Origin: Dermatophagoides farinae
Taxonomy: Eukaryota > Arthropoda > Arachnida > Sarcoptiformes > Pyroglyphidae
Reading direction: 5' to 3'
DNA: 64,000 bases
Assembly (NCBI RefSeq): GCF_024713945.1
Contig: NC_134684.1
Coordinates: 1,841,001 to 1,905,000 of the forward strand
Position numbers and translations under genes: made by a program. Position 1 is the stretch's first letter. The number at the start of each line of letters is the position of its first letter. Below are positions 2,677-63,443 of this stretch, in pieces. Under the pieces are notes generated by a model, which searched no databases, was not told the DNA's origin, and was given only the letters and a program-made list of their open reading frames with translations.

Positions 2677-3885
2677 ATGATGAATAACAAAAAACGAAAA
2701 GCGTCAGGAGCTTCGAAAAAGAAACGCTATGAGAAAATTGAATTCCTTGGAGAAGGTCAATTTGCCTATGTGTATAAAGCTCGAGATGTACAAACCGATC
2801 AAATCGTAGCTGTCAAGAAGGTTTGTATGAATCTTTAAATCTGTAAATTCGCTAAATTTTCTATTGTTAGATCAAACTTGGATCTCGATTTGAGGCACGC
2901 GATGGAATTAATCGGACCGCGCTGAGAGAGATCAAGATTTTGCAAGAATTATCTCATGAGAACATAATCGGGGTAAGTCTCCATTCATCAATATGATTTG
3001 TAAAGCCATGACATTTCGTTTCTTTCATTGAAGCTATTAGACGTATTTGGTCATGTTTCAGATGTTTCACTTGTTTTCGAATACATGCTTACTGATCTAG
3101 AAGTAATCATAAAAGATATAAACATATTTTTGACTCCTGCTAATGTTAAATCATACATAATAATGACCCTTAAAGGTCTTGAATACCTGCACACCAAATG
3201 GATATTACATCGTGATCTCAAACCAAACAATCTGCTTATTGATGGTAATGGCGTGCTCAAGATTGGAGATTTCGGTTTAGCTAAATCTTTTGGTTCACCA
3301 ACAAGAATACTTACAAATCAGGTCGTAACTCGTTGGTATCGTGCACCGGAATTATTATACGGTGCTCGTATGTACGGTACCGGTGTCGATATATGGTCCA
3401 TTGGTTGTATCATCGCCGAATTAGTCATACGATTACCATTTTTCCAAGGCCAAAGTGATCTAGATCAAATGCTTAAAATATTCCAAGTGATGGGCACACC
3501 AAATGAAACTAATTGGCCAGGTGTAACAAACCTACCGGATTATGTGAAATTTAATGTGTTAGAGCCTGTACCATTTGAAAACATATTCACAGCTATCAAA
3601 GAAGATTTAATACAAGTTCTTCAATCAATGCTGGCGTTGGACCCTAATCGTCGATGTACATGTTCACAAGCATTACAAATGGCCTACTTTCACAATGATC
3701 CACCACCAACGCCTACACATTTATTACCGAAAGTAAAAAACGAGATATCTTCGGAGGATATTACAATCACTGATCAAGCATCAGGTGAACCAACCATGAG
3801 TGGCACTAAAAGAGCCAATCTGTTTAGTTTGGATAATGTGGTGGCACCACCACATGTAAAACGATTAAATTTCGATGATGATTGA
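2677..3885 (+). CDS. CDK7: Cyclin-dependent kinase 7 (CAK / TFIIH kinase)
   Basis: Exons join(2677..2820, 2871..2972, 3034..3885); GT-AG introns of 50 and 61 bases; 365 residues (human about 346). CDK7 with cyclin H and MAT1 activates cell-cycle CDKs and, inside TFIIH, phosphorylates the RNA polymerase II CTD in the nucleus. The protein has a basic N-terminus, the glycine loop [11 protein letters not shown] (about 25-35), catalytic Lys47, the CDK7-type NRTALRE helix (62-68, in place of PSTAIRE), HRDLKPNN with Asp143, and DFG at 161-163. The activation segment carries Ser170 and Thr176 in the positions of the two CDK7 T-loop phosphosites, before [19 protein letters not shown]. The C-terminus is short and basic (GTKRANLF). 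The start is the first of two consecutive ATGs. A five-codon upstream frame (2670-2687) overlaps it. AATAAA lies at 3905-3910. Confidence 0.96.
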
Positions 3886-4047: not shown

Positions 4048-7000
4048 TTAGATAAGCCGTTCTTCTGGTGGTGGTTTCAGAATCTCTCCAGCAGAATTTC
4101 CAAACATTTCCTGAGTCGATGGTGAATATGTGCCACGTGTTGCTCGAGCACGTTTTATGCTTCGAAATACAACCAACATGATGACTGCCAAAGCTATAGT
4201 CATTATGGCACCCACAGATGCAATCAATATGACCACAAGGTTGATTCGTTTCTGTATGTTCAACAAAAATTAAACCAAATGAATTGCATAGATCAAAATC
4301 AGTGTCAAACCTTTTTCTCACAAATTAGTCCTTCATAATCGTCCGAACAGATGCAATAATAGCCACGACCTGACTGGACACATGTTCCACCATTCTGGCA
4401 AAGACCAGTGGCCATTGAGCAATCATAGATTGGGTCACAAAGCGAGCGATTATATAATCCAGCCGGATTAGGTAGGCAAGCACAAAGGTTATGTTGTATA
4501 TGTGACATTTTTTTCACACAATGTGAATGCTCTGGATGACATTCGGGCATGTAACAAGATCGGCGTCGATCACAACGTTCGCCTAACCAGCCGATCGTAC
4601 ATTCGCAAATATAGGAATCGTTACTTTTCTTCAAACACGTAGCTCCATTTCGGCATGGCGATGAAATGCATGGATCGATCAGATATTGGCACATTTTCCC
4701 CTCAAATCCGTAAATACACTGACATGAATAGGAATTGATTTCATCGATACAAATACCTCCATTCTGACAATGGTTAATTTGGCAATCGTCTTTGTTGATC
4801 TCACAATCGATGCCTTCGAATCCTGGTACACAGGTACAAGTATAACCAACCGCTTGATGACTATGACGCAAAACCGTCAATTCGTCCAGTTCATATTTGT
4901 CGCGAAAATTCTGTCCAAACAATGATGCATCGTGAGCTTTCTGCTGACAGGTACCACCATTTTGACATGGATTTGATTCACATTCATCGATGTCAATCTC
5001 ACAATGATGGCCCGTGAACCCAGGTCGACAATGACAACTGTAATTAAGATGCAAATCTTCGCATCTAAGCGTCCCCAATTGAGAACAAGGCATTGGTTCA
5101 CAGTCATTAATTTCTTTCTCACAATGTGGGCCATCAAATCCGGTTTCCGTACAATTACATTCGAATGCATTTACCAAATCGATGCAGCGGCCACCATTCA
5201 GACAAGGATCATTGTCGTTGTTAACTGATTCGGCACATTCATCAACGTCTTTTTCACAATGATCCCCTTCAAATCCAGGTAAACATTCGCATTCATAGGT
5301 GCCATTACGATTCAGACAGGTACCATTGTTCATACACGGACTTATGACGCATTCATCAACGTCTTTTTCACAATGAATGCCTTCAAATCCATGATGGCAT
5401 TCGCAATGGTAGCTAGCTAATTCATTGACACAGCTACCACCATTCTGACATGGATTCTGAATACATTCATCAATGTCCAACTGACATTGTGAGCCTTGAA
5501 TGCCTGAAGGACAATGGCAAAGATATCCACCGATCAAATCAGTACAGGTTCCACCATTTTCACAAGGATTCGATTTGCATTCATCTACTTCTAACTCACA
5601 ATTCTTGCCGGAATATTCAGGTGGACAATCGCATTCATAAGTAGACTGTAGATTTTTGCAAGTACCATTGTTTTGGCATGGACCAGAAAGACATTCATCA
5701 ATGTCCAGTTGACATAATGGACCGGTATAACCAGGCCTACAATAACATTCGAACGAGCCAGGTTGATTGACACATAAGCCATGAACACATGGATGGTGTA
5801 CTGAGCATTCATCGATATCATGTTCGCAAAATTGGCCCTCATATCCGGTTGCACAGTAGCAGCTATAATCTGTCAGGTTATTCAAACACGTTCCATTCTG
5901 ACATTTATGCTTTTTGCAATGATCGATACGGTTTTTGCATCCGATACCTTCGAAACCTGGAGAACATTCACAACGGTATCCGTTGACTAAGTCGATACAA
6001 ATCTGCCCATTACTACAGTTATGTTGAGCACAATCATCGATGTTAATTTCACAATTATCACCTGTCATTTAATGGTAATAGTGAGCTAGGCTGAATACAT
6101 TGTTTCTATAGAGCTTACCGGTGAATCCCAATGAACAGCTACAATTGTATGATAAGAAATCCTGAGCAGTCAGACAATGGCCTCCATTTTGACATGGATT
6201 TTCTTCCGGTGATTGGCATGGATTCCATATGTTTGTACAGTTTGCACCATAATAAGGTGGAATACATTGGCACGTGTAATTGCTGATTCCGTCCACACAG
6301 TGACCACCATTCGAACATGGATTCGGTTTTGGACAATCATCGATATTGTGCTCACAATTTTTTCCTATAGTCAAAGATTATTGATTATTATTAACAAATG
6401 AAATGCCAAAAAAATTATCGATACGAACCGTCGAATCCATCAATACATTGACAAACGGCAAGACCATCGGGTCCATTGATTTGACAATGGCCATTGTTGA
6501 GACAATTGATTGTATCACATGTGTGTAGGATATGTTCACAGTTTTCACCATGATAACCTAACCATTGGATATCATTAAAATCGTTGATATAATACAATTT
6601 GAATTGGGATAACATCAATTATTAAACATACCCGGTTTGCAAATGCAACTTGGCATGGTTGAATTTTCAATAAGGCTGCATGTGGCACCATTTTGGCAGT
6701 TGTGATTCATTCCACAAGCTTGATTACGGTATTCACAACGTGGTCCACTGAAATTTCCAGTGCAAAAACAATAAACTTCAGCATCACTGACCACTAAACA
6801 TTGGCCCAAATTCTGACAATGGCCATGTCGACAACGACAGAATTCATCTACACATTCAGAGTGTTCGGGACAATCGTCATTCGATTGACATTTTAATTCG
6901 GCATCGATTCCAAAATGTCCATCTCGACTAATCAATGGGTTGTTTGTAGACGATTCGATTAACGATAAGGACGACGGTGGTATTATAGTCATTGTTTCAT

Positions 7001-7277
7001 TTCTCGATTCTTCAATTGAATCTGATGATGAATGACTTATGTTAGCATCTTCGTTTGTCATGTTTAGTACGGCCACTATGGGTCCGGTAGTTGTCGGGGC
7101 AGTTTGTTCGTCATCGTTGTGATGTAACCAAGAATTCGAAGACCATGGCTGGTCATCGCTAATGGTTGTATATGGCAGTGATTGACAATCTAAAATTGAT
7201 ACCAGTGTCAGAATAATGAAGACAGTGGCCAGAACTAATGGACATTTTGATCGTCTGGATATTCTGATTGTCGGCAT
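4048..7277 (-). CDS. crb: Crumbs-type polarity protein with an EGF-only ectodomain
   Basis: Exons complement(join(4048..4251, 4311..6061, 6119..6364, 6429..6557, 6632..7277)); 991 residues, all phases consistent. A signal peptide (ATG at 7277; an in-frame ATG at 7310 is the alternative) is followed by a Ser/Thr-rich segment and about 19-20 EGF modules, many calcium-binding (IDEC/VDEC). One transmembrane helix (about 930-950) follows, then a short tail. The tail carries the Crumbs juxtamembrane FERM-binding motif RATRGTYSPS and the C-terminal PDZ ligand ERLI after KPPPE, so identity as a Crumbs-family apical polarity protein rests mainly on this tail. Family knowledge: the tail binds PALS1/Stardust, Par6 and FERM proteins. 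Odd: no laminin-G domain is visible between signal peptide and membrane, whereas fly and vertebrate CRB1/2 have several. EGF 16 has a roughly 30-residue insertion. CDK7 is convergent, 162 bases away. Confidence 0.9.
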
Positions 7278-9115
7278 AGTTTTGATGAATAAATAACACA
7301 GTATTAACATATAGAATATGTGGAATAATGTAGCTAGAAAGTAGGATGATTTGATCTATAAATTAGCCATTTGAATACGGAACAATCGATGATCGTAATC
7401 ATGTGAATGTAGTTGATTGTAAAATAGTCTTCATCCAAATGACAACCAATTGGACGATGATTGTAGCATTATACATCCGGTGATTATTATGTAAAATAAT
7501 GATTGTGTGATTTTACAATGAATTTTACAGCCAATTGTTAATTTGGCCTATTGTTGGCCTAAAGTGAAAGGGATGATTTTAGTCACCAAGTCAGTCAGTC
7601 AGTCAATTTCATTCAATCAATCAAGGAAACGATCGATCTACAAATCTATTCATTCATTCATATCATTCACTGTATTCACAATGATTGTTTGTCACATTTA
7701 TAATATATGCATAATCAAAACTGGATGCTACTCTCTAAATTAATGTGGCTAGTTTATATAAACTTCCTCATCATCAAATTTATATACAACACAAACACAT
7801 TATTAAACAACAAGTTGAGCTGATTCAAGTTTAGGTCCATAGACTCCCACCACAATTGTAATCATTATTTTGGTCACAATATGACAAAAACGGTTACTTT
7901 AAAAAATTTTTATAGAGACGACGATAATTTCTTTGCGAAATTGAAACCATTGAGCACTTTTTTTTCTACAGTTAATAAGCATCGACGTCACTAGTTTATC
8001 AAACAAACAAACAGGTAAGATGCACTCGGCATGACTCATAATGTAGCTTTCCATTAGTGGTTAAAAAGCCAGCCATCACAATCATCATCAACAGGTATAT
8101 TGTGTTATTCTATGTTACTCAATTTGTTGTGTGTGTGTGCGTGTGTGTGTTTATATATTATATTCCACTGCCTCTGCCCTTTGGCCACAATAAACAATGA
8201 ATCCATTCAGATGGTGAGCGCAACCAACTGTTGCCATGACCACCGCCACTTGTCCTGAATTCGCACACATCACATCATCATCATCAGTTTTATTATTCGA
8301 AAATGAGCAATGTTTTCAAATTTTCAAAAAGTTCCAAAAGCGTAAAATAAAATTTTTGTAAGCCATAATTATCAGAGAGCCAACTGATGAATAATATCGA
8401 TGGAATATGGTTGAACCAGGCTCATGCTTCATATAGCAAGAAAATTTTTCAATTTTAATTTTTTTTTCCAACAAACCTAACTCTTTCAAAACTAGCCGTA
8501 GCCAATAATTTTAATTTTATTGCATTTTAAATTATTTTAAAAATTTGAAAACAACATCAGCAACAGTTTTTATTTAATGTTTCATCAATGAATTATTAAG
8601 AATTCTTATTGTTTAAAAATTATTTCATTGTTTTACAAACAATTACAATTACATGTAATACAATACATTGGATTGATAATAGAATGAATGAATGATGATT
8701 AATAATTAATTAATTTACGAATTTATCATTGGGGAGGAAAAATTATGATATTTTCACACTTCTAAGACCCACCCTTACAATTTAAAATTGATATACAATG
8801 TTCAAATAACAAACGTCCTATATGAACAGACGCCTTTTTACAAAGTTGTTTTGATGCACATTTGAGTTTGAGTATTTTTTTTTATTTTTATATTTATTAT
8901 TAAGCAAAGGCATAAAGTGATAACTGTTAACTGCATCAATATCAAAAATCGGTGACGAACTGATCTTGTGTGTAATAAATTATTACTCGTATATATATAC
9001 GAATTTTATTTTGCCTTGGTTTTGGCGTCATTGGATTATATGTAATCCTATCCATTGTCTGTTTGTGTGCGTGTTTTTTTTCATTTTTTATTTTTTTCAT
9101 TAGAACATTAGCACA
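7278..9115. promoter_or_regulatory. Shared upstream region of the Crumbs-type gene and CHMP4
   Basis: The two flanking genes are transcribed away from each other. No coding segment was recognised. The segment holds tandem AGTC units near 7590-7605, CA/TG tracts near 8130-8150 and several poly-T runs. A pyrimidine tract ending in TTTTTTCATTAG at about 9104, 12 bases before the CHMP4 ATG, may be the acceptor of a 5' UTR intron. Core promoter elements were not identified with confidence. Confidence 0.4.
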
Positions 9116-23188: not shown

Positions 23189-26100
23189 TCATGATGGTTG
23201 TGTTATATTATAAGAGCCGCGATTGCGAACGATTAAGGCCATTCCGTGTTTGGATCGATTTAATGATGATTCTTGCAAATGGACCGTCTTTATCGTCGGC
23301 TCTTTGCTGTATTGATCAAACGATGGTCTATTGTAATTGTCATTGGAATCGGTGGCCTCAGTGATTTTTATGTTAACAGTCTGCGGACGAAATTCTAATG
23401 TTTCTGATGATGGTGATGATGAGGATGAATACGAATCAGCTTTATCTGTTGACCTGAACAATGGCATAAGAATCGAGAATGAAGATAGAATGTAAGTCAT
23501 GATCGATTTGTTCTGTCCAAGACGAAAACGGAATAAAATATGACAATGAAGTCCGAAAGAGCGAAGCGTTCGGGCATCGATAAGTATGAAATGAAAAAGG
23601 TAAGCCATGTACTTACTTGTTCCTAAAAAGTAATACATATGCTAGACTGGCGAATGCCGCTACGATGACCAATGAGAGTATGACGATAGCGACGATCCAT
23701 CCAACATTTGAACCGAATTCATTCTCACATCTTTCTCCATAATGTTCGCTATCACATCGGCATTTATAACCATCATCGCCAACTGGTACACATTCACCAC
23801 CTGAAGCACATGTATCCGGTTGACAAACATTGACACAAGGTTCCTGTTCTGAATCACGTCGATATCCCGGTTGACATCCACATAATCGACTTTTTTCCCA
23901 TTTACTTTTATCATCTTTTCTTCGAACTGGATCCATTTCGAAACATTGTTGATTATCGCCTGTACAGTTACCGCATAATTCACGGCTCAAGCAACGTTCA
24001 TTCTTACTGGTGATCAATTCATTAATTGTCTTAAATATGTACGATTTTTCAACTACAAAATAGTCTTGATTACATTTACAGGAAAAGTACCCATTCCATT
24101 TAGTATTATTCAGACAATCGGACATTCCTTGACAGACATCTACTTGACTACATGGCTACATTAATTAAATAACAAGAACGAAAGTTAATGATCGGATGAA
24201 TTTCCTGAATAATGATTAACTTACATCAAATGACATTGGTTGAGTTTCAAATGCCATTTGTAAGTATGGAACGAGACACCATTCACCGTGTTTGAAATAT
24301 TTGATCTCTTTGTCTGCATTACGATCACGAATATAGACTATCACCTGATATTGATCATGATTGTCTGGAACGTCGGTTTCTACAGGATCCATACCTACCA
24401 AATCCAAATGATATTTTTCTTCAACAACTTTAAAATTTTCCATCATAATCCGCATATGATCACGTAAAACTTGTTGTCTTATCAAGGCATTCCATTTTTG
24501 TTGATTATCACGATTACGTTCTTCATTCATTTTCAATGAACGAATCTGTGCTTGAGCCCAATTGATTGGATCAATGTAATCCAGCCTGTATGAACAATAA
24601 TTGATTGTGACAACGATTTTTGCCAATTTTTGTAAACATACCTGTTTTTTTTGTTGATAGATGTTTCTCGTATCGCTGAATAATTGAAAGAATTTCCTAG
24701 CAATTTATTGAAACTGGCAATACGAGATTCGAATTCACTCTGCAATTGAACCGTCCATGTATGTTTCATATGATAAGCGGTGGCATCAACTACTTGTTCA
24801 CAGACATCGCCATCACGACTACTTCGACGAAACAAACCCGGTATACAATCACAATATTCCGTTGACATTTTTTCATGATTGTTTGAGCTATGTAGATATT
24901 TCCATAATTTACTCGGATTACAACGACCACCAATTGCTGAACAAATTTGTTCATAATACGGCAGCTCACAAACTGGATAACATTTGCCATCGATCAACGA
25001 ACTATCTTTTTTCGATTGAGTCTTGTCAGAAAACATATATCCTTGTGGACATAAGCATTCAAAATTATCTGGACGTTCTGAATCGAGTATACACAATGCT
25101 CCATATCGGCGACATGTTTGATCTCCTTTTTCATTTTCATCGCAAGCGGTTTTGACCAATGTACATGAACCATCGTTAGATTGTTGCCACCAATCGGTTA
25201 GATCTTTGTGCGTACAATCGCAGAACGTACGATTAGTCAATGAATCGATACGCAGCTTATTTAGTGGACAAGCCATCTTAAGGTCTAAAGAACACAAGGT
25301 CAACATAAAGAAATAGTTGGAAATGCAAATTATTGTCTACTCGCCTTTGATGATGCATTCCATCTGGCCATCCGATGATCGCTTTGGTTCGAATCCTTTC
25401 CTACATTGACATTGGCCATCATTGCAAAGCTGATTAGCGCCAGTACATTTTTCACATAACTTAGGAACATTATTCCGCAATTTGCACCCAGTATACGTAA
25501 TATTGGTTATTGGATCGATCTTGTCTTCTGTCTCATAATATTCTTTGTTACATTCACAACGAAAGAATGGCTCTTTGTCTATAGATGTACATTTTTGTTG
25601 ACAAGGATTCATCGAAGGAAATAGACATAAATCCGGTTTACATTTAATTCCATCAAATTTAAAACCTTGAGGGCATTTACATAATAAATTTGAGCCTTGT
25701 TTCATACATTTCATTTGGTGATCAGGACAAGCATCTGAACTACATTCGTCGTTGTTACTGACCACACATTGATTCTCTGGGTCCTTTGGATCTGGTTCAT
25801 AACCAATTTTACAATTACAGTCACATTTTCTAGTTTTGTCATTATCACGACATTGGCGTCGGTCTAATTGGCCAGGCATATCAAGCAGACATGGTTGAAC
25901 TGGGCGACATTTCCTTTCATCCATCTTAAACCAAAGCGATTCATTTTTGCATGTGCATAAAAATTCAAAATTTTGAAATCGACCTTCATAACATTCGGCG
26001 TCATCATTTTTACAATATTGATCGCCAGTTATATTATGAGATTCGCTTTTTATTTTTATATGTCGATACAAACAATAATTCTTTTCTTTGCAATTACGCC

Positions 26101-29100
26101 CTTTGGCACCATTTTTGAAGTCACAATCACATTGATAATCAATTTCTGTACGATCTATTGAAACGTTTCGAAAACATTTAATGTTCGGGTCTTCTATTGC
26201 TTCCAAGTTGTAACAAATCTGATCTTCACCGTCGTTTTTAACGCATGGATCACCGAATGTAAAATCCATCACATCGAAGAGAGATGACCTTTTTACTTGT
26301 GAATTTTGATGAACAGGATCATCGAAATAAAATTGAATGACTACTTTATAGAGAGTTTCATTGTTGATGTTTAATTTTGACACATTGATCACTTTTTTTT
26401 CACCCAATACGATCATATCATGCTCGTCTTTGTGATCTTCGGAATCTTCTTTGCCGCATACATGATATGTACCCATATTGTACAATGGTTGACGATGTTG
26501 ATCGTATAATTCAATGTGTACACGTTTCAAATAATTTGGTGTCTTAGAATTTAGCTTGAAGGCCATGACTGTTCTTTCATTAATGGTTCGCCTTAGCAAC
26601 TGGGTTTCAAGTTGAGCAAATCCAGTGGTTTGTGAATGTAGCGGTGATAATGATATGATTGATGTTTCATTTTCAGAATCAGGTTTTTCATTTTTCCAAC
26701 GTCCATTAGGAAATTGTAATGGCCAAAAATCACTATCACTATTGATATTAGCGTTTTTCCACTGTTTCAGACCAGATTTCGTTCGACTTATGTATGGCCA
26801 AGGTTCGTCAGATATTCGTTGTCCAATAGGCTGCGTATGAATTCCAGATATTTGTATCAAAGTGAGATCATTCAAATGATCGTTCAATGTTGCCACTAAG
26901 GTCATAGATTTTAATGGTTCTATTTGTTGTCTACCAATCATTTCTTTAATACAAAGCTTTTCCATATAGTCACTTGACAAAGACAGCATTTTTTGATCAT
27001 CATGAGCAATTTCTTTAGTTTTTGCTAACATTTCTATGCCAGCAATTTGAAAGAGGTTTTGTTCACCGTCATCATTTGCCATCATTGTGAGGTTTAATCG
27101 AGCATTTTGGCCAGCCAAAAAATATCGAAAATGTAGACAAATATCTTCATCATTCAAATTGTTTGGTAGGCTAATCTCTTCAATTTGTATGCGGCTACCC
27201 GATTTAGCCGTGTAGTATACGGGCGGTTGACCAGATTTAAATAGAGATTGGTCGATTCGTGGAAAATTACTTGGTAGATATTTCATGTTTTGTGCAAGAT
27301 TTTGTAGGAAACATTGTGGACTAGTTCCATTAATCATGGTACCACAAATCTCATCTTTACGTTTAATAATCGCTTGTCGACAACTGAAGAAGAGAAAAAA
27401 TTTATTAATAAGAAACAATAAATAATCTGATAATTACCTGACTGTTTTTTGATCAAATCGATAACCAACCGGACATTCACATTCAAATTTTTCTTCAGTG
27501 ATAGGTACACATTTTGATTCATTGTCAATTTCTTCATGACATTGTTTAACCTGATCATCCTTACATTTGGTTAGCTGACATTTATCCCCATAATGACCAT
27601 CGTCACAATTACATCGATAATTTTGGAATCCATTAGCTGTACATTCACCGTAGCCACTACAGTCATGCCAACAAGGATCCAAGATGGAAACTTCAAAAGG
27701 ATTGGTTTTATTAATACCACTGTCATAGAAAAATTCAAAATGGAAACCATAGTCTGAATTATCTTTCAATAGCCTGATTAATGCTTTTGGATTATCAAAT
27801 TCAGAGCAATCGCTGTAGACCGTTGCAAAACATACTTGTCGTCGATCTGGTTTTCCAAATTCAATTCGAATTTTTTGATCAGTTTCTTGTTCACCCAATA
27901 TGCTATATGGATTTTCGAACCATTGAGTGATTAAAATTACCTGTTTTTCAGTTTCGGACTTGAATTGAATGCTTCTATCAGTAATATTAAAGGATTCAAT
28001 GACAGTTCCAATTGAATGCACATTTTCCATTTTATTAATGCTGCGTATGGACGGTTCCCAATTTAGTGGAGGATTATAAAATGCGACTTTGGCCGTTACC
28101 GTTTTGTTATCAGTATTTTGTATATGAAGAAGCAATTTCCTTTTGAGATTCCAATACAAAGCGGTCAGATTGAGATAATGACTCAGACACAAATTATAAG
28201 ATTGACTTCCATCCAAATAATCAGCGTCGAGCAAAACTTGTTTATCTAATTGAAATTTCAATTTAAGAAGTGGAACCGACTCAGTCTTGTTTGTGGCAGC
28301 GTTTTGAATCAAAACACAAATGTCATACAAACGGATATCAATGAGAGACGTGTCGGGCAGAATGAATTTTTTGCCATTTTCTTCTGGTTTCGGCTGTTTT
28401 TGTTGATGACATTTTTTTTCGGTGCTATTATAGATAATAATTTCATCAGGCGATTTGTTATCACATTGAATTTCAGCTTCATTTGCAAAATTAATACATC
28501 TCATCGTTTTAGAGTCCCATGTTAATTTGAAACAATGGTCCACTTGATTACAATCATCACCCCACCAACCATCAATGCAAGAACAGGCACTTTCCACGTC
28601 ATTGGCCCGAACATATTCACTTGATTCATCGCATTTGCTATTACCCACACAAATTGGATTAGGTTGGCATGGATTGCCAAAACTTATCATTTTGATTGTC
28701 AAATCCGTAGAACTTTCAGTGATGAATTCGATATGCAAATTTAAATGGCTACTTTTGCTATTTGGATGTGGTTCGAATTGGAATGAATATTGAAATAAAT
28801 TTTCGATGGAAATTGATGATTTCTGCATTGATTGTATACATAAACTTGTCACGTCGCAGAGTTTAGCTCGAATTTCTTTTACTTGAGAGCTTAAGGATAG
28901 TATCAATGGCCGTAAGGTCAGTAAATGATTGTCTTTATAGAATAACCATGCGGTCGACACAAAATATTTGGTGGCTGATTTTAAATTTTTCATATTCAAA
29001 TTTGCACCATCTGTTCCAACTTCTATGTCAGATATCGGCATAATTGATTTTGACCATACTGGATATTTTTTGTTATCCTTTAAGGTCAACGGAAAGAAAG

Positions 29101-30774
29101 ATGGTTCAGGCAAACTGCTATCACTTGTTTTTCTTTCGTTCGATTTCTTTTCGTTCGTCACAGCTATGAACACTAAGTTTTCCGACTTGTCATTGTCATG
29201 TAATTGAATGTAAAGCTGTCCTTTAGGTTTAGTAAAAGGATCTATTCGTATGAAATCAGTTGGACAGAATCGAAGTATCTCACTATGATTGAATTGTTGA
29301 TATTCATGTAAATTGTATAGTTGCGATTTGTTAGGATTTGTATGATGATTAATTTGCAACCAGATTTTCATTTGTATTGGTCGATCCACTATGTAGGCAA
29401 TTTCCAAACAAGGATTGTTGTTGTTAATATTAAGATCTACTTGCTCATGAATGATGGTCGCCGATTCGATATTAGTATTATTAGTTTCAGTTTTGTGCCA
29501 AAAATATAAAGGAATATTTTTTTTCTTACAATCTTCAATGAAAATTTTAACCAATTTTGGACTGGGACTTTCATTCAGCATAAATTGATTACCATCAATA
29601 TTATTTGGAATGGCTACAAAATCTTCCAAATCAAAAGCAACGATTCCATCATCCTTTGGCTGGATCTTTATTGTCAATGAGGTTTTGTTTATTTTTTCCA
29701 AGCCTTCTGTCGTCAGAAAAACTGTATAACAATTGTTGTCTGATTTTGATTTCCAATCTTTGTCTTTTATGAGTTCTTTTTTTGATTCAAGAATAAAGTT
29801 GACTTCGGAAGGATAATGACAACGAAATAATTGAACATCTTCTGATCGTTTTTGTTGATCAAATTTGTCATATCTGAAAGAGCAATTTTTTGTTGAGCAT
29901 TCATACAGATTTAATGAGCCAACCATCGTGTCTTTTTTGATGTTAAATATTGATTTGCTTGGTTGTTGCAATTCGTTTATTATCATGGTATCGTTTTGAT
30001 CACTTAAACTGCTGTGATCATAAGATAACCGAACTTCTTTCAAAGCCAATATCGAATTCTCACAACCAGCCAGATTATTCATGGTCAATAATGATTTTTC
30101 GGTCAATTCGACCAACGATTGACGATCATCAATCACAAATGTCCGACTGATGTTCACCCATTGTTCAGGATTTTCTAAGGGCAGTTCATTTTTATCACCA
30201 TAAACGTAATAGCTACGTGTACATTTAACATCTGTATTGCCATTCTGGTTATACCAAATCTTGATCGATGCAAATTGGGTTAGTTGTTGTTAGCCTGTTG
30301 TTATAACTTACCTTGAAATGAAATATTAGTCGTTCGAATGGACTTTGATCATAATCTTTGAGCAAATTGGTAATTGTTTCGTTAGTCATTTTATGTGCAC
30401 CAACTTCATACAGGCCTAATGAATAAAAAAATCGTCTGCTATCCTGCTGTAGTTCATTGGTATCAATTATCCGTGCTTGTTCTTCAACCTTTGGAAAACT
30501 TTTATCAATGATGATCCAGTCTTTTGGATCAGCGATCACCTTTAATTCTATTCATTGATATGTTAAGCAATAAATAAACAAATTAATTAATTTGATTATT
30601 TAATTATCACAACTTACCAAGTTTGCTTGATTCAACTTCAATAGGTTCTTCTGGAATGGAATGTATCAAATCGATATCATTATGATGATCTTCGATAGCC
30701 CAAGATTCGTAAACAATAATAGACCACAAAAGAACAATTGTCCAATGTGGAATGAATGAATTTGGCCACTTCAT
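23189..30774 (-). CDS. Giant single-pass EGF/beta-module membrane protein (unnamed)
   Basis: Exons complement(join(23189..23453, 23617..24155, 24225..24585, 24642..25284, 25345..27383, 27438..30259, 30312..30547, 30618..30774)); 2353 residues, all phases consistent. Signal peptide (MKWPNSFIPHWTIVLLWSII) at the N-terminus, one transmembrane helix (about 2236-2262, VGWIVAIVILSLVIVAAFAS) and an 88-residue Ser- and Tyr-containing tail. The ectodomain alternates Cys-rich EGF-like modules with Cys-poor beta-rich stretches of about 150-250 residues. Three of these stretches end alike just before an EGF: ISFGNPC, VSILDPC and FTFGDPC, which suggests a repeated jelly-roll unit (MAM-like spacing; inference). 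The C-terminal part has EGF modules around a helical segment ending in GEWCLVPYL. This resembles the EGF/SEA-like layout of the tick gut proteins Bm86/ATAQ, but homology is unproven. One intron uses a GC donor. Function is unknown; a surface adhesion or receptor role is likely. Confidence 0.88.
25285..25344 (-). other. Probable GC-AG intron
   Basis: The exon end AAAG is followed by GCGAGT, and the acceptor is TTCTTTAG. Using this GC donor keeps the reading frame (IIK-D-LKMACP). The nearby GT two codons on would create an immediate stop after splicing. All other introns modelled in this window are GT-AG. Confidence 0.7.
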
Positions 30775-31362: not shown

Positions 31363-34300
31363 CTATTGGTGCTGATAATTACGAAGTGAATCAATGATTG
31401 CCAGATATGGGTCTTGTAATTTTGATCGGATATCATTTTCTTTCCGTGGAATTTTTCCCTCATCAGCGTTGAGCGTAAACAACTGAAAATAAAACAATGT
31501 ATTAGTGAACAAACACAATGGTATTAATTAACATCCAATTACCCTTAGCAACAGTTTTGATTGATGATTAGCCAATGGCCGATTCTCCCAATCAGGTAGA
31601 TATTCGTTTAGTCCAACGAAATAGCATCGAATCAATCGATTTTGTTCATATCGAGTGACCAATGCCTGACATCGGTTAATTGATTTACGGTCACATTCAC
31701 GAAGGCAGTGTGCTAAATCTACCGGACGGCTAAGCATCAGTGTTTCATCGGTTACCTTAGGTGAAACTAATGGCCATTCAATTGCCATATAGAGACTATC
31801 ATCTTGGCTCTGTATATATTCCGATCCAATTTCTTCCGATACTTTTCCGCTATCACGAGGCACCAAGAATGCACTCAAAGCTTGTGTGAAATTTGTTTCG
31901 TAAAAAGCGCAATCAAAATGTTGCAGTTGTTGATCAGCCTGTCGAACCGGTATGATTATGACCAATCGACAAAAATGAGATTGAATAAAATTCGATGATT
32001 TCGAAGACAAAAATGATGGATTACTGTAGTATAACAATTTGGATTCCCATGTACGAACACATCGATCTAAACATTGATGACGATTAGTAACGTTGGATAT
32101 ATGCCAGAATGCTAATCTTCCGCTGTCGACAATCGATCTAGAAATTGATTCCATATTATTTTTGTCTACAATCCGTTCAAATGAATCGTATTTATCAACC
32201 ATTTCATCTGAATCAAAACGAGTAGTTACGAACGACGGTATTGAACGTAATCGATAATATTCGACAGGCGTCGACCAATCTAGATCCGGATATCTTTGCA
32301 GAGTTACATTGTAGTTGTAAAGCAGACAACGATAATCTTCGGTATTATTCCACAAGCGGCGATTAGGCTCAATAATCACCAATTGACATTGATCTAATTG
32401 ATTAGTGCTATAATAATTGTATTCGGAACATCGACTCAAACAATCTTCCACAGTGGTCATATTTTCGGTTGCAACCAGAATCGGTTGATAGGATTGACGC
32501 ATGAAATTTAGCGATTGGCTGTACATTGATGGATCGACATAATCATAGGTGTCAGTATCGACCAGCTGATAGACAAGTACTTGGTCATAATCAATTGGTG
32601 TTTGTATTTTTAGAGCATCAATCTTTTCTATATTATTCTGCTGTGGATAATGATCATAATAAAGACATTCATATTGAACCAATAAACGAGCTGGAAGAAT
32701 AGGATCGGACATGAATATTGGACGAGCAAAAATGAGCAATCCACCAGATTCTGGGTTGTCAGAATTTCGGCGTTTTGGTCGAATTTTTGAGCACTGAACT
32801 GCATTCGAAGCATGACTAAAATGATATTGAGCTTTCCATTCCCCATTAGATTTTTTTAATTGTTCATCATTCATAGTCTCATACTCAGTATGATTCAATT
32901 GCATGATCAATTGAGGACGATCATTTTGACTTGAATTGTTCGACACTCGATATACATTGATAGGATATTCGGACAATTGATTTTGATATCGTTTTTGTTG
33001 TGATATCTGCGCCAATTGTGCATCAATAACAATATCATAGATCATACATTCATATTTATTGTTTAACGTTATGTCGGGCTTTGCCAATACTACTCTACAT
33101 CGATCCGGATCGGCATAGTGATGATTTGATCGTGATCGAGCCCAAAGTAATAAACAAAGACGAAGACAATTGCTTGGATTTGTTTCTCCTTTCAAACGAT
33201 ACAATGGTTCATAACGGTTAAGCATACGTTCAATCGTTGATTGATTTGTTGATGATGAATCGCTTGTATTAAGTGACTCTGACATGAAATAATCGTCTAG
33301 TAAATTATTTGGTATAGTAGAATAAAAGCCTGAGCCTGATTGCCTGACATCATGTTCAGGTAGACTACGTAATCGGAATAATTGAATTGAACCAGTTTTG
33401 ATTTTGTTATCCATAATTCGTTCATAGAAACGACATTTTAGATGACCAGTCTTGAGTTTTCCAATGTGTAACTTGTGACAATAATGATGAGCCATGTGGC
33501 TAGATGATAAATTCGTGATATGTGTTTGCAAACAACGGGACAAACATTGTTTCTTATCGGTAGCTGTAATGGTCAATTCGTTAAGAAAATTAATTTGGCT
33601 ACTACCATTTGTTTGCATGTTTGGTGTTTCAATAAAATAATCCATTACACGATCTAATTTGAATGAGAAATCTGGTAATGGCATTCTTCGTACGGTGAAC
33701 CAAGATTGTTCAGTGAAAGCAATCGGACTTAATTCAAAAAATGAACAATTAAAACGATGGGAATGCTGTCCATGCCATTTGACCACTAGAAACCGACACA
33801 AAGGTTCAGTAATTTTTTCCGTATTATGCTTGGTCATAGAATTGTTGCCAACAGATTGTAGCCACGAATTGAAGCAATGACGATAGCATTGATTCTCGTT
33901 GCTAACGCCATACCATTCTTCGTATGATGGTCCTACCAATTGTTCAGAATCACTAATGGTCGATGGATCATGGATGTTAAATTTAAGAAATGGTTCAGGC
34001 GTATCAAGCACATAGGCAGACATTCCTAATGTTCCAAATGGTTCATTCTCGTTCTCATCGATAACATTATCTAGTTCGCGTTCCAGTTCACGGCGTTGAC
34101 GAACCGTTGTAACAATGATTGGCGATGCTAGTCTTTCAAACGGTCGGTCTAGTATGCCTGTCGTTTCAAGATCTCGTTTAGCAATAGTGGCACGTTCGGT
34201 CATCATCAACTTGTACATAATTTGAATCAGGTCTTCGGTGAACAGCAGACAAATTTTCTATAAATAAAAAATAATGATGAGCCATTTAGGTCATAAGTTT

Positions 34301-37277
34301 AATCGTAAGGAACATACTGTTTGGTTGTTGTGTCCATCCAACAGCTGTTCATAAACGGCTATGAATCGACATTTCAGATCCGTCATGACGGCACAATCGT
34401 GTTCACATTGCCGCACATCAGTCACGTTTGTTATTCGACGTTTTGGTTCCAGATAACGCCCAAGAAAATATTTACGATCCTCTTCACCCATCAAAAGTTG
34501 TTCGAATAATCTGATGTAAACCGGTTTCTTTTCGATGACAAAATCGGGTTCCATATTGTTGTCTTTTTGGTCCATCATTGCAACACCAATAGTCCATCCA
34601 GCACGAATGCTAAACGAATCAGATAAAACATTGAGTTTGCGGTTAGCATCAGGTTGTTGTTGTTCAATAAGACAAAGACCGGTAGGTCGATGATGCAAAA
34701 CGTATGCACAGGATTGACGCTGTGGTTGCATACATTGCTGTAGGCAATCTAAAAATGTCTTACTGACACCAATTGAGCCATACATTCCATTTTGGCTTTT
34801 GATGGCTTTCACACGTTCCAAATGAAGGCCATCCTCGCCATCAACCAAATTGACAATTGAATGTGCCAATCTTGGTCGTACATTCTCGCCAATCAAAACG
34901 TCATTATCGTATGCTCGATACCATCTTGGTTGAACAAAAGTAGTGGTTGATGTAGATTCATTTCGCATGAATGTTGCAATATTATTTCCATAGCTGGACG
35001 ATGCATTGGCCAGTGAAGTTTGCACATCCAATTCATATGCAAGACGACATTCCATGCTCTGACGATCATAAGTAAATCCAACACAAACGGCCAACATTTG
35101 CCAGCAATATTGTTGACATTTTTGTAGTGATTCTGTTTGTCTCGTTTGCACGAGTTTTGAATATCGGTCATCAAGAGCCTGGTTGTATACTTGAAGCCAT
35201 TGATAATTCGATCCGGTATTGGCTGATTCTATGATCAAACAATCTGTATCGGGGCATTGAGCAATCGTTTCATTAATCTTGGCATGATCTGTGTTCATTT
35301 TTTGACTATCAGATATTTTGCGTTTCAATCCTATTATTTCAGCTAATTCATCAGAAATCGAATGATTCTTGTTATCGTCGTCATTCGCATATAATACGTA
35401 TGAAGATTGATCATTTGTATTATTGAACTGAGGCCATGTTACTACAATTATATCATCTCCATTGGATGGTAATTTTGATTCTCGTTCTATTGGAAATTCT
35501 GTAGTGGTTGCAGTGTTCGTGTCTGATGTTTTAATTATTTGAGTTGGATTGAATGTGGCAATAAATTGACTAAGATGATTGGCCAATCTACTATTAGCTG
35601 TTGTAGTTTCCAATGTATCAAGTCGGTTCTCTATGTCATCATCTTCACGTCTAGATAAATTCTTCGGTTCATATGGAACAGTTTTCAATCGAGATTGTGA
35701 TGGTAGTCCTTTATCATCATCGGTAGTTATGATCTTAGCAGATTTGTGATGGCTATCTAAATTACGGGCTTGGATTACATTTTGATCATGATGATCTGTT
35801 TGATTATCCCCGTAAACAACGCTTATGCTATCATTTAATATTGGTGGATTATGGGGGCCGGTCAATCGTAAATATTCCTCTAGCTCATCTTCATAAACGA
35901 CAAAACTTCTCATCAAATTTGGTTCTGTTTGTTTCTCATTGATTGGTTGTCGGGATTCAAGAGCCGTGTTTGTTGAATCGTTGGTTTCGAGTCGTTCCAT
36001 GGGTTTACTTGTTGAAGTAGTTGTTTGTTCAATGATTGATAAATTCGATTGTTTTATCGGTTGTCGCCGGAAAATTGTGTAATCATCATTATTATTGTTT
36101 TGATCATGCAGGTCATTATCAACGTAAACAACGTGACTTGCTTGTGTTGATAGGTCATCAGGCTGGTTTTGGATTTTGATATCAGCATCGTTTGAATTCG
36201 GTCTGACGTTTGGTTGATTTGGCAAGTATTGACTGCGAGAATACATTGCAGGTGTTGTTGATGAATGATTATTTTGATTCAAAACGAATGGTCGTATGAC
36301 TTTTTGACGTGATTGTGGATCGGAAATTGCCTTATCATGCGATTGATTAACTATATTAAGAGAATCAGCTGGTCGAATAGAACGATTAAAATTTTGAATT
36401 TGATCAGTATTATGGCCACTCGATTGACGTGGATAAGTTTCGTTTGACTGTATTGCACGACCGTTCGGTACAGAATGTGCTTTTTGGCTTGGAAATCTTG
36501 TTTCATAATGAAATTGATGATATATACCAGTTTGTGGATCATAATACAATTGGTTGGGAGAAACGTTTTTCGGTGCCAAAACTATTCGTTCACTTTTTCG
36601 TACGGTTGGCTTGTTTATTCGATTGCCAAATGTAGTATCCATTCGGTTGTATCGTAATTGTTCACGTTCTATGTTCGACTCAGTGTTGGTAATTATTGGG
36701 CGTCTAAATGATGATGGAGGCGGTGGAATCAATGTTTGGTCATTGTCATTCGATTGATATTGTGCACGAGAAACTGGAACAATATAACGAGGTGGAAGTA
36801 CAGTAGTTGTTGAAATAGGTGGCTTCCTTAACACTGTTGGTTTCCGCCTTACGAATGGTTCATTTCGGTGGATTTGAACGGGTTGCTCATAACGAGCATA
36901 TTGAATAGATGTTTGATCACTAGCAGCAGCATTGTGTGAATCAATACCAGTTGTTTGGCGTGAAGAATGAAGACAACCAGAATTGTAGGGCCAATCACAT
37001 GTCATTATTGAAGGATTGTAATGAGTACCAGGTCCACAATCAAATGAATATGGTGTACCATGAACGCAACGATAAAATTTACCACAATCATTTGGATGTG
37101 GATAAAAGCCATCATCTGTGTGAATGAAAAAAAAAATTTTGATTATTGTTATTTGCAATGAAAATTGAACTTTATTCTACCTTGGCATTGAAAAGATGCA
37201 TTACAATCATGAAAATTGAATGAAAATGATGAAATGAATAGGATACAGGTAACAATATTGATTAATCGATTTAACAT
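31363..37277 (-). CDS. Secreted chitin-binding (CBM14) plus multi-PAN/apple protein
   Basis: Exons complement(join(31363..31482, 31543..34257, 34318..37115, 37181..37277)); 1909 residues. Signal peptide from ATG 37277 (ILFISSFSF core), then one peritrophin-A/CBM14 domain (about 31-80: FQCQDDGFYPHPNDCGKFYR, then FDCGPGTHYN and CDWPYNSGC) with the six expected cysteines. A disordered Asn/Gln/Ser/Thr/Arg-rich stretch (about 85-620) follows, then about ten PAN/apple-like modules to the end. The modules are recognised by recurrent CxxxC pairs such as CQQYC, CLQQC, CEHDC, CYRHC, CLSRC, CLRLC, CLDRC and CLREC, each followed by two more cysteines. No transmembrane helix or GPI signal: the C-terminus is hydrophilic. 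Known roles: CBM14 binds chitin; PAN modules bind protein or carbohydrate. Inference: a cuticle or apical-matrix linker. The family is not named with confidence. Confidence 0.88.
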
Positions 37278-61308: not shown

Positions 61309-63273
61309 TCATTGATTAAGAAGTGAACCAAGATAAGCTCGAACCATTGGTTTAGTAACACGTAATAGATCATAACGGGTAACGGTACTATTCTCACCCA
61401 ATACAATCAATATGGTACCATCCTCATTGAATGCAGTCTGACGAATTACACGACTGTATGCACGTTGTGGTAAGGAATTATTATTCTTTTTCTGTGAACA
61501 AACAATTGTCGGAATCGGTACAGGCACCTCAAATGCTAAGCGATAATCTCTGGGATTAAAATGTTTAAGATCATAGAGAAATAAATGTCCTTGTAGATTA
61601 CCGATGGCTAAGATGAATTCATTTAGATCCAACGAAAATCGTACGAACCACATATTATTACGGTCCAAATCAAATCGGCGAATAATTACCACATTTGATG
61701 TAGTCGAATCATCACTAGAATCTAGTGTTCCATGGGTTGCCGAATCTGAATAATATGTTCGTCGTTCAAGATCATCAAGCGTTTCATTTTCGCTTGCCCC
61801 CGGTTTCCATATGATTAATTTTTCATCACAAGATTTGGTCACCAATAGATCACCAAACCATTGTACGGAATCAATGTAATTGTGATGTACATCACGGGTA
61901 GAATAATTGGGAAAATGTTGAGAAACAGTGGGAAATTGTTGAGCATTTTGATCCGATATGAAATGACGAGATTTTTCGATTGCTTGAGCAACTTCATGAT
62001 GACGGAATGACCATATTTTGATGGAATGATCGATTGATACTGAAACAAATAAAGAACGTGACCTATGGAAATCGATGGCCAACACTTCATCACGATGACC
62101 TTGTACTCCACCGAATATTGCAATCAATGTATTCGTAGCAAGATTCCATAGACGAATACCAGAATCTTTTGATGCGGACAGCAATAATGATGGATCACGA
62201 GGACAAATCTTGAGATCATTGATGGCAGCACCATGGCCATATAGAGTCTTCGATTCACATTGTCGCCGTACGTCAATGATACGGATAACGCCACGTTCAC
62301 CACCAACACATAGATACGGATGATCTGGACGTTGATAATCATGTGACCAGCAACAACAGTAATACGAATCATTACTGTCAGTATGAGCGAACAACGGTTG
62401 TAAACCATTACGATTCGATTGTTGCTCGATCGTTGATAAACATCGATACACAATGAGCAATGATTGACCACAAACGGCGAAAACATTATCCGGATAGCTA
62501 AAAGAATTAAATGCCAGACCATACATTACTGGAAATGTTGGATCATATTGTGATGAATTTAATTTTAACATCAATGATGAGCTACAATCAATGAGGAATT
62601 TATCCGTGCTCAATTTGGTAGCCATTGCTTTCTCGTTCATTGTCGTTAAATTAGGAGAAGTTTGTTTAGCGTTTTTATTTTTGGCTCTTTGTTTGAGCGA
62701 TGGCTTAGAACTAGTTGCCTGTTTCGATGTTGACTGTTGTTGTTGTCTTCGTGTAGACCGAGTGTTTATTCGTTCATTTTCATCTTCATTTTCGCCATCG
62801 GTCATAGATGTATCACTATGGGAATATTCGCCTGGCCAATGGTTATAATTGATTGCAAAAGAATCTTTGTTGAAATCGAGAAATGATCTGACGAATTGAG
62901 TCAATGTTTCCAACTTGTCATTTTTCCATGCTTCAGAATCGTCTTCATCAGCATCACTATCATCTTCAAACGAATGGTCACAGCTTACCGTTTGTGACAA
63001 AAGTTGCAAAATTTTTCGAGCCATTTCAGGTAATTGATGATGGGTCCACAAATCAGTCGGTTGATGATTACCATCAGTGACATTTTTTGGTTGAAACTTT
63101 AATGAACTAAGTCGATCCAAGAGGAACCGTTGAGCAGACTGGATGGAGTCAATTTTTTCATCACCATCATTAAATGGACCATCATTACATTGGTCAGTTT
63201 CTTGTTTGATTTCGCAGACATTTTCCGACATTATTTTTTGATCATTTTCACATGAATGGGCAAGATTCGACAT
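61309..63273 (-). CDS. eed: Polycomb EED/ESC WD40 protein, PRC2 subunit
   Basis: Single uninterrupted frame, 654 residues (human EED 441). EED is the WD40 beta-propeller of PRC2 that binds H3K27me3 and activates EZH2. Family strings in order: YGLAFNSF, CCWSHDYQRPDHPYLCVGG, RGVIRIIDV, LYGHGAAINDLKICPRDPSL, LLSASKDSGIRLWNLATNTL, IAIFGGVQGHRDEVL, IDHSIKIWSF, HFPNYSTRDVHHNYIDSVQW, and NNMWFVRFSLD. The Trp of the trimethyl-lysine cage (human W364) is present in NMWF, with Phe at the next position where human has Tyr; the Tyr in DSYYCCCW matches human Y148. About 200 extra N-terminal residues (acidic, then Gln/Ser/Lys-rich with basic clusters) precede the propeller. Acidic loops are inserted near 525-550. 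The ATG at 63273 is the first in frame. No introns, unlike every other complete gene here. TTTATT at 61216-61221 is a candidate polyadenylation signal. Confidence 0.94.
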   Translation of the reverse strand: MSNLAHSCENDQKIMSENVCEIKQETDQCNDGPFNDGDEKIDSIQSAQRFLLDRLSSLKFQPKNVTDGNHQPTDLWTHHQLPEMARKILQLLSQTVSCDHSFEDDSDADEDDSEAWKNDKLETLTQFVRSFLDFNKDSFAINYNHWPGEYSHSDTSMTDGENEDENERINTRSTRRQQQQSTSKQATSSKPSLKQRAKNKNAKQTSPNLTTMNEKAMATKLSTDKFLIDCSSSLMLKLNSSQYDPTFPVMYGLAFNSFSYPDNVFAVCGQSLLIVYRCLSTIEQQSNRNGLQPLFAHTDSNDSYYCCCWSHDYQRPDHPYLCVGGERGVIRIIDVRRQCESKTLYGHGAAINDLKICPRDPSLLLSASKDSGIRLWNLATNTLIAIFGGVQGHRDEVLAIDFHRSRSLFVSVSIDHSIKIWSFRHHEVAQAIEKSRHFISDQNAQQFPTVSQHFPNYSTRDVHHNYIDSVQWFGDLLVTKSCDEKLIIWKPGASENETLDDLERRTYYSDSATHGTLDSSDDSTTSNVVIIRRFDLDRNNMWFVRFSLDLNEFILAIGNLQGHLFLYDLKHFNPRDYRLAFEVPVPIPTIVCSQKKNNNSLPQRAYSRVIRQTAFNEDGTILIVLGENSTVTRYDLLRVTKPMVRAYLGSLLNQ

Positions 63274-63443
63274 GCCCGAAATCAAATTTTATTATGGTAA
63301 AACAAAATTAATCCCGAAGAATTTTGCAACAAGCAGTCCAATTCATAATATACGTATCGTCCACAGTGTGTGTTATTTTATATTTTTCATCGAATTTGTT
63401 GATCGATTGCCTCATTCAATCTTGATTGCTCGTTCGATACAGA
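63274..63443. promoter_or_regulatory. Bidirectional promoter of EED and the edge gene
   Basis: Only 170 bases separate the two divergent ATGs, so transcription start sites of both must lie here or overlap. No core element was identified with confidence. This is inferred from gene layout. Confidence 0.5.

Follow-up and report, generated by a model that had tools for sequence, protein, structure and literature searches.

A central question raised by this locus of the mite Dermatophagoides farinae is whether a giant membrane protein, in which epidermal growth factor (EGF)-like modules alternate with cysteine-poor segments, contains a new repeated module or combines known parts. The gene spans positions 23189..30774 on the minus strand of the window, by which we mean the whole 64,000-nucleotide stretch analysed (assembly GCF_024713945.1, contig NC_134684.1, positions 1,841,001 to 1,905,000). 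The protein appears to combine known parts in an unusual way and not to contain a new module; the novelty is the combination and the size, not the parts. In our preferred interpretation, to which we give an even chance, a type I membrane protein of very large size has EGF-like modules and MAM-like jelly-roll sandwiches strung together as its outer part and functions like other MAM/EGF surface proteins.

Eight exons (minus strand: 30774-30618, 30547-30312, 30259-27438, 27383-25345, 25284-24642, 24585-24225, 24155-23617 and 23453-23189) join into an uninterrupted reading frame of 2353 residues that ends in a single stop, and splicing and codon usage match the original prediction of eight exons in phase to the residue. 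The seven introns range from 52 to 163 bases in size; all seven acceptors are AG and six of the seven donors are GT. The fourth intron has a GC donor (25344-25343) in a good donor context (AAAG/GCGAGT) and is backed by phase; use of an alternative GT donor four bases further on breaks the frame. Because a codon-usage score trained on four other long open reading frames (ORFs) of the window (2747 codons) is positive in the used frame alone in all eight exons, even the two short ones at the start and the final one, the gene is a real coding sequence. Retention of the last intron would introduce a stop directly after RNK, behind the membrane helix (ORF 23613-24155).

The layout upholds the proposed type I topology. 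A signal peptide (MKWPNSFIPHWTIVLLWSIIVYESWA, judged by eye) is followed by cysteine-poor segments alternating with EGF-like sets, one transmembrane helix near the C-terminal end (about residues 2237-2263, 23625..23705; like all features of this gene, on the minus strand), which has the highest hydropathy of the protein, and a 90-residue cytoplasmic tail (residues 2264-2353, 23192..23624, with one intron within, from splicing). The tail is rich in serine near its start, and no known tail motifs were seen by eye in these residues. The 113 cysteines are crowded at residues 662-748, 994-1073, 1452-1913 and 2088-2229, and the cysteine map gives cysteine-poor segments 1 to 4 lengths of 635, 243, 378 and 172 residues, respectively. 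The protein carries 31 N-glycosylation sequons, of which 3 lie at or beyond residue 2265, in the tail.

The crowded regions consist of EGF-like modules. Reading the cysteine list by hand yields 14 six-cysteine and 2 four-cysteine sets, and a loose EGF pattern recovers 10 of the 14. When the protein was scanned in nine pieces, the Pfam EGF profile (PF00008) reached 23.5 bits at residues 2197-2227 against a cut-off of 21.5; this six-cysteine profile match, the only EGF over its cut-off, establishes family membership in the piecewise scan, and in a scan of the whole protein the same profile scored 18.7 bits, below the cut-off. The top match of the first 1100 residues among Protein Data Bank (PDB) sequences is the EGF of L-selectin (E = 0.00033). 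The first set (residues 662-701, 28550..28669) follows the loose six-cysteine pattern (EGF_2, 16.5 bits, under the cut-off of 22.1), and next to it lies a partial four-cysteine set recognized by its spacing (residues 707-748, 28409..28534). Two sets at residues 994-1073 (27380..27673, one intron within) also fit the loose pattern, with EGF at 20.6 bits (cut-off 21.5) and EGF_3 at 21.0 (cut-off 28.5), both under cut-off. The long tract at residues 1452-1913 (24800..26245; 52 cysteines) holds eight six-cysteine sets and one four-cysteine set by hand, five of the eight recovered by the loose pattern; of the last three sets (residues 2088-2229, 23727..24152), which include the PF00008 match, two are recovered.

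A link to a known fold comes from segment 3 (residues 1074-1451, 26246..27379), which ends in FTFGDPC and in our reading consists of two MAM-like jelly rolls in tandem, the first half (3a) from profiles and the second (3b) from structure prediction. Segment 3a contains the MAM core strand with the third cysteine (C-[LF]-x-[FIL]-x-Y): at the aligned position, DICLHFRYFLAGQNARLNLTMM stands alongside, for example, YSCLRFAYYLMGNRNVSLS. We used two MAM profiles from the mite's own genome, one from 19 stretches and a second from 20 (one on contig C16 dropped and two from C10 added). An alignment of 18 mite MAM stretches matches 18 PDB sequences at E values of up to 0.01, all of which we take to be known MAM proteins by name; one of them, 8a28, is titled LAST-MAM. 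The first profile matches the protein with 13.4 bits at residues 1133-1185 (27044..27202). No shuffle of segment 3 reached its score with either profile (0/953 and 0/937; 1000 shuffles per run, counts excluding shuffles that gave no score), nor with a core sub-profile (0/2000). Among the 235 ORFs of the window the gene ranks first (15.6 bits, E = 1.6e-4; runner-up, E = 0.21), as it does with the second profile (E = 0.0015 versus 0.21) and the core sub-profile (E = 0.071 versus 0.91); with an end sub-profile, the gene is absent among the six matches listed. Reversed ORFs reach a maximum of 6.2 bits. Controls gave no MAM signal with the first profile (EGF block, 206/767 shuffles as high; segment 4, 103/997, and 369/992 with the other profile). 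HHalign places segment 3 above 100 of 100 shuffles, but with a probability of just 10.4%. As a check for contamination, one scan of contigs in prokaryote genome records found no orthologues of segment 3.

Several observations weigh against placing these segments in the MAM family. The sole Pfam match of segment 3 is MAM (PF00629), at 12.8 bits and E = 0.11, far below the cut-off of 26.4, and the 31 places found with the Pfam MAM model in the mite's own genome at E values of up to 10 do not include the gene. None of the ten pieces examined gave a fit to a sub-profile for the first half of MAM. The fourth MAM cysteine, after the last strand, is expected about 80-100 residues past the third, and it is not found there: the distance from the core cysteine to the closing cysteine is 247, 172 and 298 residues in segments 1, 2 and 3, compared with 78-104 residues in 17/20 mite MAM stretches holding a later cysteine. 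Because these spans are too long, the segments, if they are MAMs, would each hold more than one, with lost cysteines.

For segment 3b the MAM profile gave no signal (588/992 shuffles as high), and the evidence is structural. The predicted model is a jelly-roll sandwich (about residues 1314-1451, 26246..26659) with MAM-bearing chains among its structural neighbours. The best rows include GH85 (7.1), PAPP-A (7.0), F-type lectin domains (6.9) and CBM4, CBM11 and CBM32 (6.1-6.6), and MAM-bearing rows are on a level with them. This tie is what speaks for an alternative that we consider unlikely, namely that the cysteine-poor segments are galactose- or carbohydrate-binding jelly rolls rather than MAMs and that the protein is a surface lectin. 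The significant MAM core strand in 3a and the predicted jelly roll in 3b together bear out the earlier guess of a 'jelly-roll/MAM-like' spacing. The accompanying statement that the module could be placed in no known family went too far for segment 3; it still holds for segments 1, 2 and 4 in searches of Pfam and PDB sequences and, for segment 1, of NCBIfam.

Segments 1 and 2 give hints only. Segment 1 (residues 27-661, 28670..30696; 11 cysteines, ending ISFGNPC) has a weak MAM-core-like stretch at C415 (NPCLEIAYIV), the best place in segment 1b (residues 330-668), with 12/974 and 19/951 shuffles equally high with the two profiles; for the whole segment the counts are 45/965 and 37/942, and HHalign found nothing (99/100 shuffles as high). 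Segment 2 (residues 750-993, 27674..28405, ending VSILDPC) has its weak core-like stretch at C822 (3/954 and 0/943 shuffles; HHalign, 1/100). Among the 235 window ORFs, segment 2 ranks sixth with 4.5 bits, below noise ORFs at 5.5 bits. We therefore do not assign either segment to MAM, segment 2 falling under unrelated ORFs and segment 1 yielding nothing in HHalign. In structure prediction, segment 3b came out as a jelly-roll sandwich, and an AlphaFold model made without an alignment for segments 1c and 2 (residues 485-998) was unusable, with a mean pLDDT (predicted local distance difference test) of 33.8.

Are the cysteine-poor segments copies of one module? The original prediction took three shared endings as a sign of a single duplicated module. 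The endings are all present (ISFGNPC at 662, VSILDPC at 994 and FTFGDPC at 1452; the fourth segment ends in MSFDPC at 2088), and their terminal 'PC' partly belongs to the first cysteine of the next EGF. Duplication is not borne out: in pairwise local alignments of eight pieces (28 pairs, 300 shuffles each), the last parts of segments 1, 2 and 3 were matched by 24, 20 and 143 of 300 shuffles, a similarity not beyond chance. After exclusion of four pairs of pieces that share 11-21 residues (1a/1b, 1b/1c, 2a/2b and 3a/3b; z = 1.7, 3.1, 14.2 and 4.8), the lowest of the remaining 24, segment 2b against segment 4 (5/300), is expected by chance from 24 tests. With no significant pairwise similarity and very unequal segment lengths, we rejected a single repeated module as unproven from sequence alone. 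Nor is there support for one new module running through all segments, as segments 1 and 2 do not align with segment 3 and segment 4 is of another kind.

These results lead to a further explanation, that the domains making up the segments are unrelated and simply happen to lie before EGFs, and that their shared endings reflect chance and the obligatory PC of an EGF start. We see this as a real possibility that falls short of probable. The pairwise alignments are consistent with it, as are the lengths of segments 1-3, which differ up to 2.6-fold, the ranks of the three endings against a MAM end profile (just 2, 27 and 32 of 248 overlapping windows) and the scores of the whole segments against the same profile (322, 641 and 1392 of 2000 shuffles equally high). 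However, compared with MAM closing strands, the three endings are matched by 44, 105 and 206 of 2000 shuffles, jointly significant at places preselected from the earlier finding (Fisher P = 0.006), and the MAM-core position scores best within segments 1b, 2 and 3.

Segment 4 (residues 1914-2086, 24225..24799) is another kind of domain. It has one cysteine, within a GEWC motif, is partly helical by eye and matches no Pfam family over cut-off (only CtIP_N, 16.4 bits against 27, E = 0.009) and no PDB sequence at better than E = 0.21. The motif raises the question of a relationship to Bm86 and ATAQ of ticks, which, in an excerpt of PMC2998001, have a signal peptide, several EGF-like domains including partial ones, and a membrane anchor. 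Residues 319-501 of Bm86, as printed in a table of PMC7996562, form a low-cysteine region with GEWC between EGF-type cysteines; this single stretch of 183 residues was used in all our Bm86 sequence tests. According to a portion of PMC5059928, Bm86 homologues were uncharacterized in other Acari as of 2016.

The gene could be a distant, enlarged relative of this family, with the same order of EGF tract, low-cysteine domain, EGFs and anchor, the MAM-like modules having either been added at its front or dropped out in ticks. Segment 4 does sit between the EGF tract and the three last EGFs, and its GEWC is followed by hydrophobic residues and EGFs. In addition, IYNSTEKKCH (residues 740-749, belonging to the four-cysteine EGF-like set listed at 707-748) resembles by eye the ATAQ signature YFNATAQRCYH, which, in the same excerpt of PMC2998001, marks ATAQ proteins and is not in two I. 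ricinus Bm86 homologues; the signature itself does not occur in our protein, IYNSTEKKCH being the nearest stretch. However, the best BLASTP match of the Bm86 stretch to the tail of the window is the GEWC six-mer alone (E = 0.45), Smith-Waterman alignment gave z of about 0 at three settings (466, 636 and 476 of 1000 shuffles), and across the whole protein the stretch fits best in the EGF tract rather than at segment 4. A whole-genome search with the stretch was empty, a weak result as it had no known positive. The narrow published EGF spacing, C-x(3,9)-C-x(3,6)-C-x(8,11)-C-x(0,1)-C-x(5,15)-C, fits 3 of the 14 six-cysteine sets, and segment 4 holds a single cysteine compared with several in the Bm86 region. 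Membership by sequence similarity was thus negative in BLASTP, Smith-Waterman and genome searches with this stretch, and a family relationship is improbable; the layout and the GEWC motif suggest a lead. Bolder, and quite improbable in our estimation, is the idea that the gene is the mite counterpart of Bm86/ATAQ, an ancestral giant MAM-EGF gut receptor of acarines of which the tick vaccine antigens are shortened descendants. If the link is true, it would provide an outside relative and a domain logic for a tick-vaccine family of unknown function.

We also searched the mite's own genome (62,435,336 bases, 22 contigs) for relatives of the gene. Two whole-genome searches (residues 1-1071 and 1072-2266; best five candidates scored in each) revealed no paralogue, although a very distant copy could escape. 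The sole non-self match in both was an EGF place on contig C9 (E = 0.057 and 0.042), in what its translation indicates by eye to be a LamG-EGF gene of perlecan type.

The MAM search turned up other genes. Tandem MAM clusters in long open frames at C4:1119160-1127409 (11 of the 31 places) and C5:3005710-3013604 (8 of 31) are probably giant multi-MAM proteins, and a third cluster, at C8:3589140-3591686, comprises 7 shorter places. Genes on C10 (3348-4307 and 4944-7307 of the piece examined, L037), C6 (L022) and C2 (L028) end in divergent MAM stretches closing AYGNC, GYGYC, GYGQC or GYGNC and seem to form a separate small family related to MAM; one of them includes a lengthy tandem repeat of about 20 residues (NSPRTDIVVPSNDQYRRPDL). 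At C16:141668-146518, one open frame of 1616 residues combines a MAM-like stretch (60.5 bits) with a second half that resembles copper amine oxidase by eye. C16 is a small contig (344 kb) on which the neighbours of this frame are, by eye, long open frames without introns, and it may come from another organism.

The neighbours in the window were identified by eye. Just upstream of the gene, large exons at 31528-37176 (minus strand) encode PAN/apple-like cysteine patterns and a chitin-binding (peritrophin A-like) domain. Also near the gene, at 4305-7355 (minus strand), a Notch/Crumbs-like gene encodes canonical EGF repeats of the calcium-binding type in a long array; its EGF type differs from that of the gene studied here. 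A CDK7-like kinase (3004-3885, plus strand) and an EED-like WD40 protein (61309-63288, minus strand) are ordinary neighbours.

If the protein is indeed a MAM/EGF surface protein, its function may be that of an epithelial surface receptor or adhesion protein. By analogy with the MAM modules of other surface proteins, the role of the sandwiches would be to bind either a ligand or an adjacent molecule, and the EGF tracts would form a disulfide-braced stalk that holds them far from the membrane. The short tail of 90 residues, which has no enzyme domain, may anchor the protein or relay binding through partners, and the likeliest setting would be an epithelial surface such as the gut. The literature searched on Bm86/ATAQ and on MAM/EGF proteins of mites yielded no description of this protein. 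On this interpretation the genome would encode a surface receptor, lacking any paralogue in our searches, in which degenerate MAM sandwiches are combined with EGF tracts at an unusual scale. The libraries searched contain no named family for it, and it would make a plain target for localization and knock-down.

Among known systems, the MAM family (PF00629; meprins, neuropilins, RPTP mu/kappa, MDGA1, enteropeptidase and the Limulus LAST-MAM) shares with the protein the C-L-x-F-x-Y core strand of 3a and, through MAM-bearing structural neighbours, the predicted jelly roll of 3b; it differs in the score below cut-off, the closing cysteine at 172-298 rather than 78-104 residues and the lack of a recognizable first half. 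An extracellular chain that unites EGF and MAM-type modules also occurs in meprins and EGFL6/nephronectin, and meprin is likewise membrane-bound. Unlike these, the protein studied here has no protease domain, is far larger and alternates several cysteine-poor segments with EGF tracts. Scavenger receptor C of arthropods, which has a membrane anchor, is likewise a surface receptor with a MAM module. Its domains, as given in a section of PMC6191154, are CCP, MAM, somatomedin B and a Ser/Thr-rich region, with no EGF tract among them; the same section reports that the MAM domain of the Spodoptera receptor binds an insecticidal protein and may help its uptake. Compared with tick Bm86/ATAQ, the protein is much longer (2353 residues versus 570-664 in the family members with sizes given in the excerpted sources), shows no sequence similarity in our searches and mostly departs from the published EGF spacing, but it has in common with the family, as far as those sources describe it, a signal peptide, several EGF-like domains including partial ones, a low-cysteine region with GEWC and a membrane anchor.

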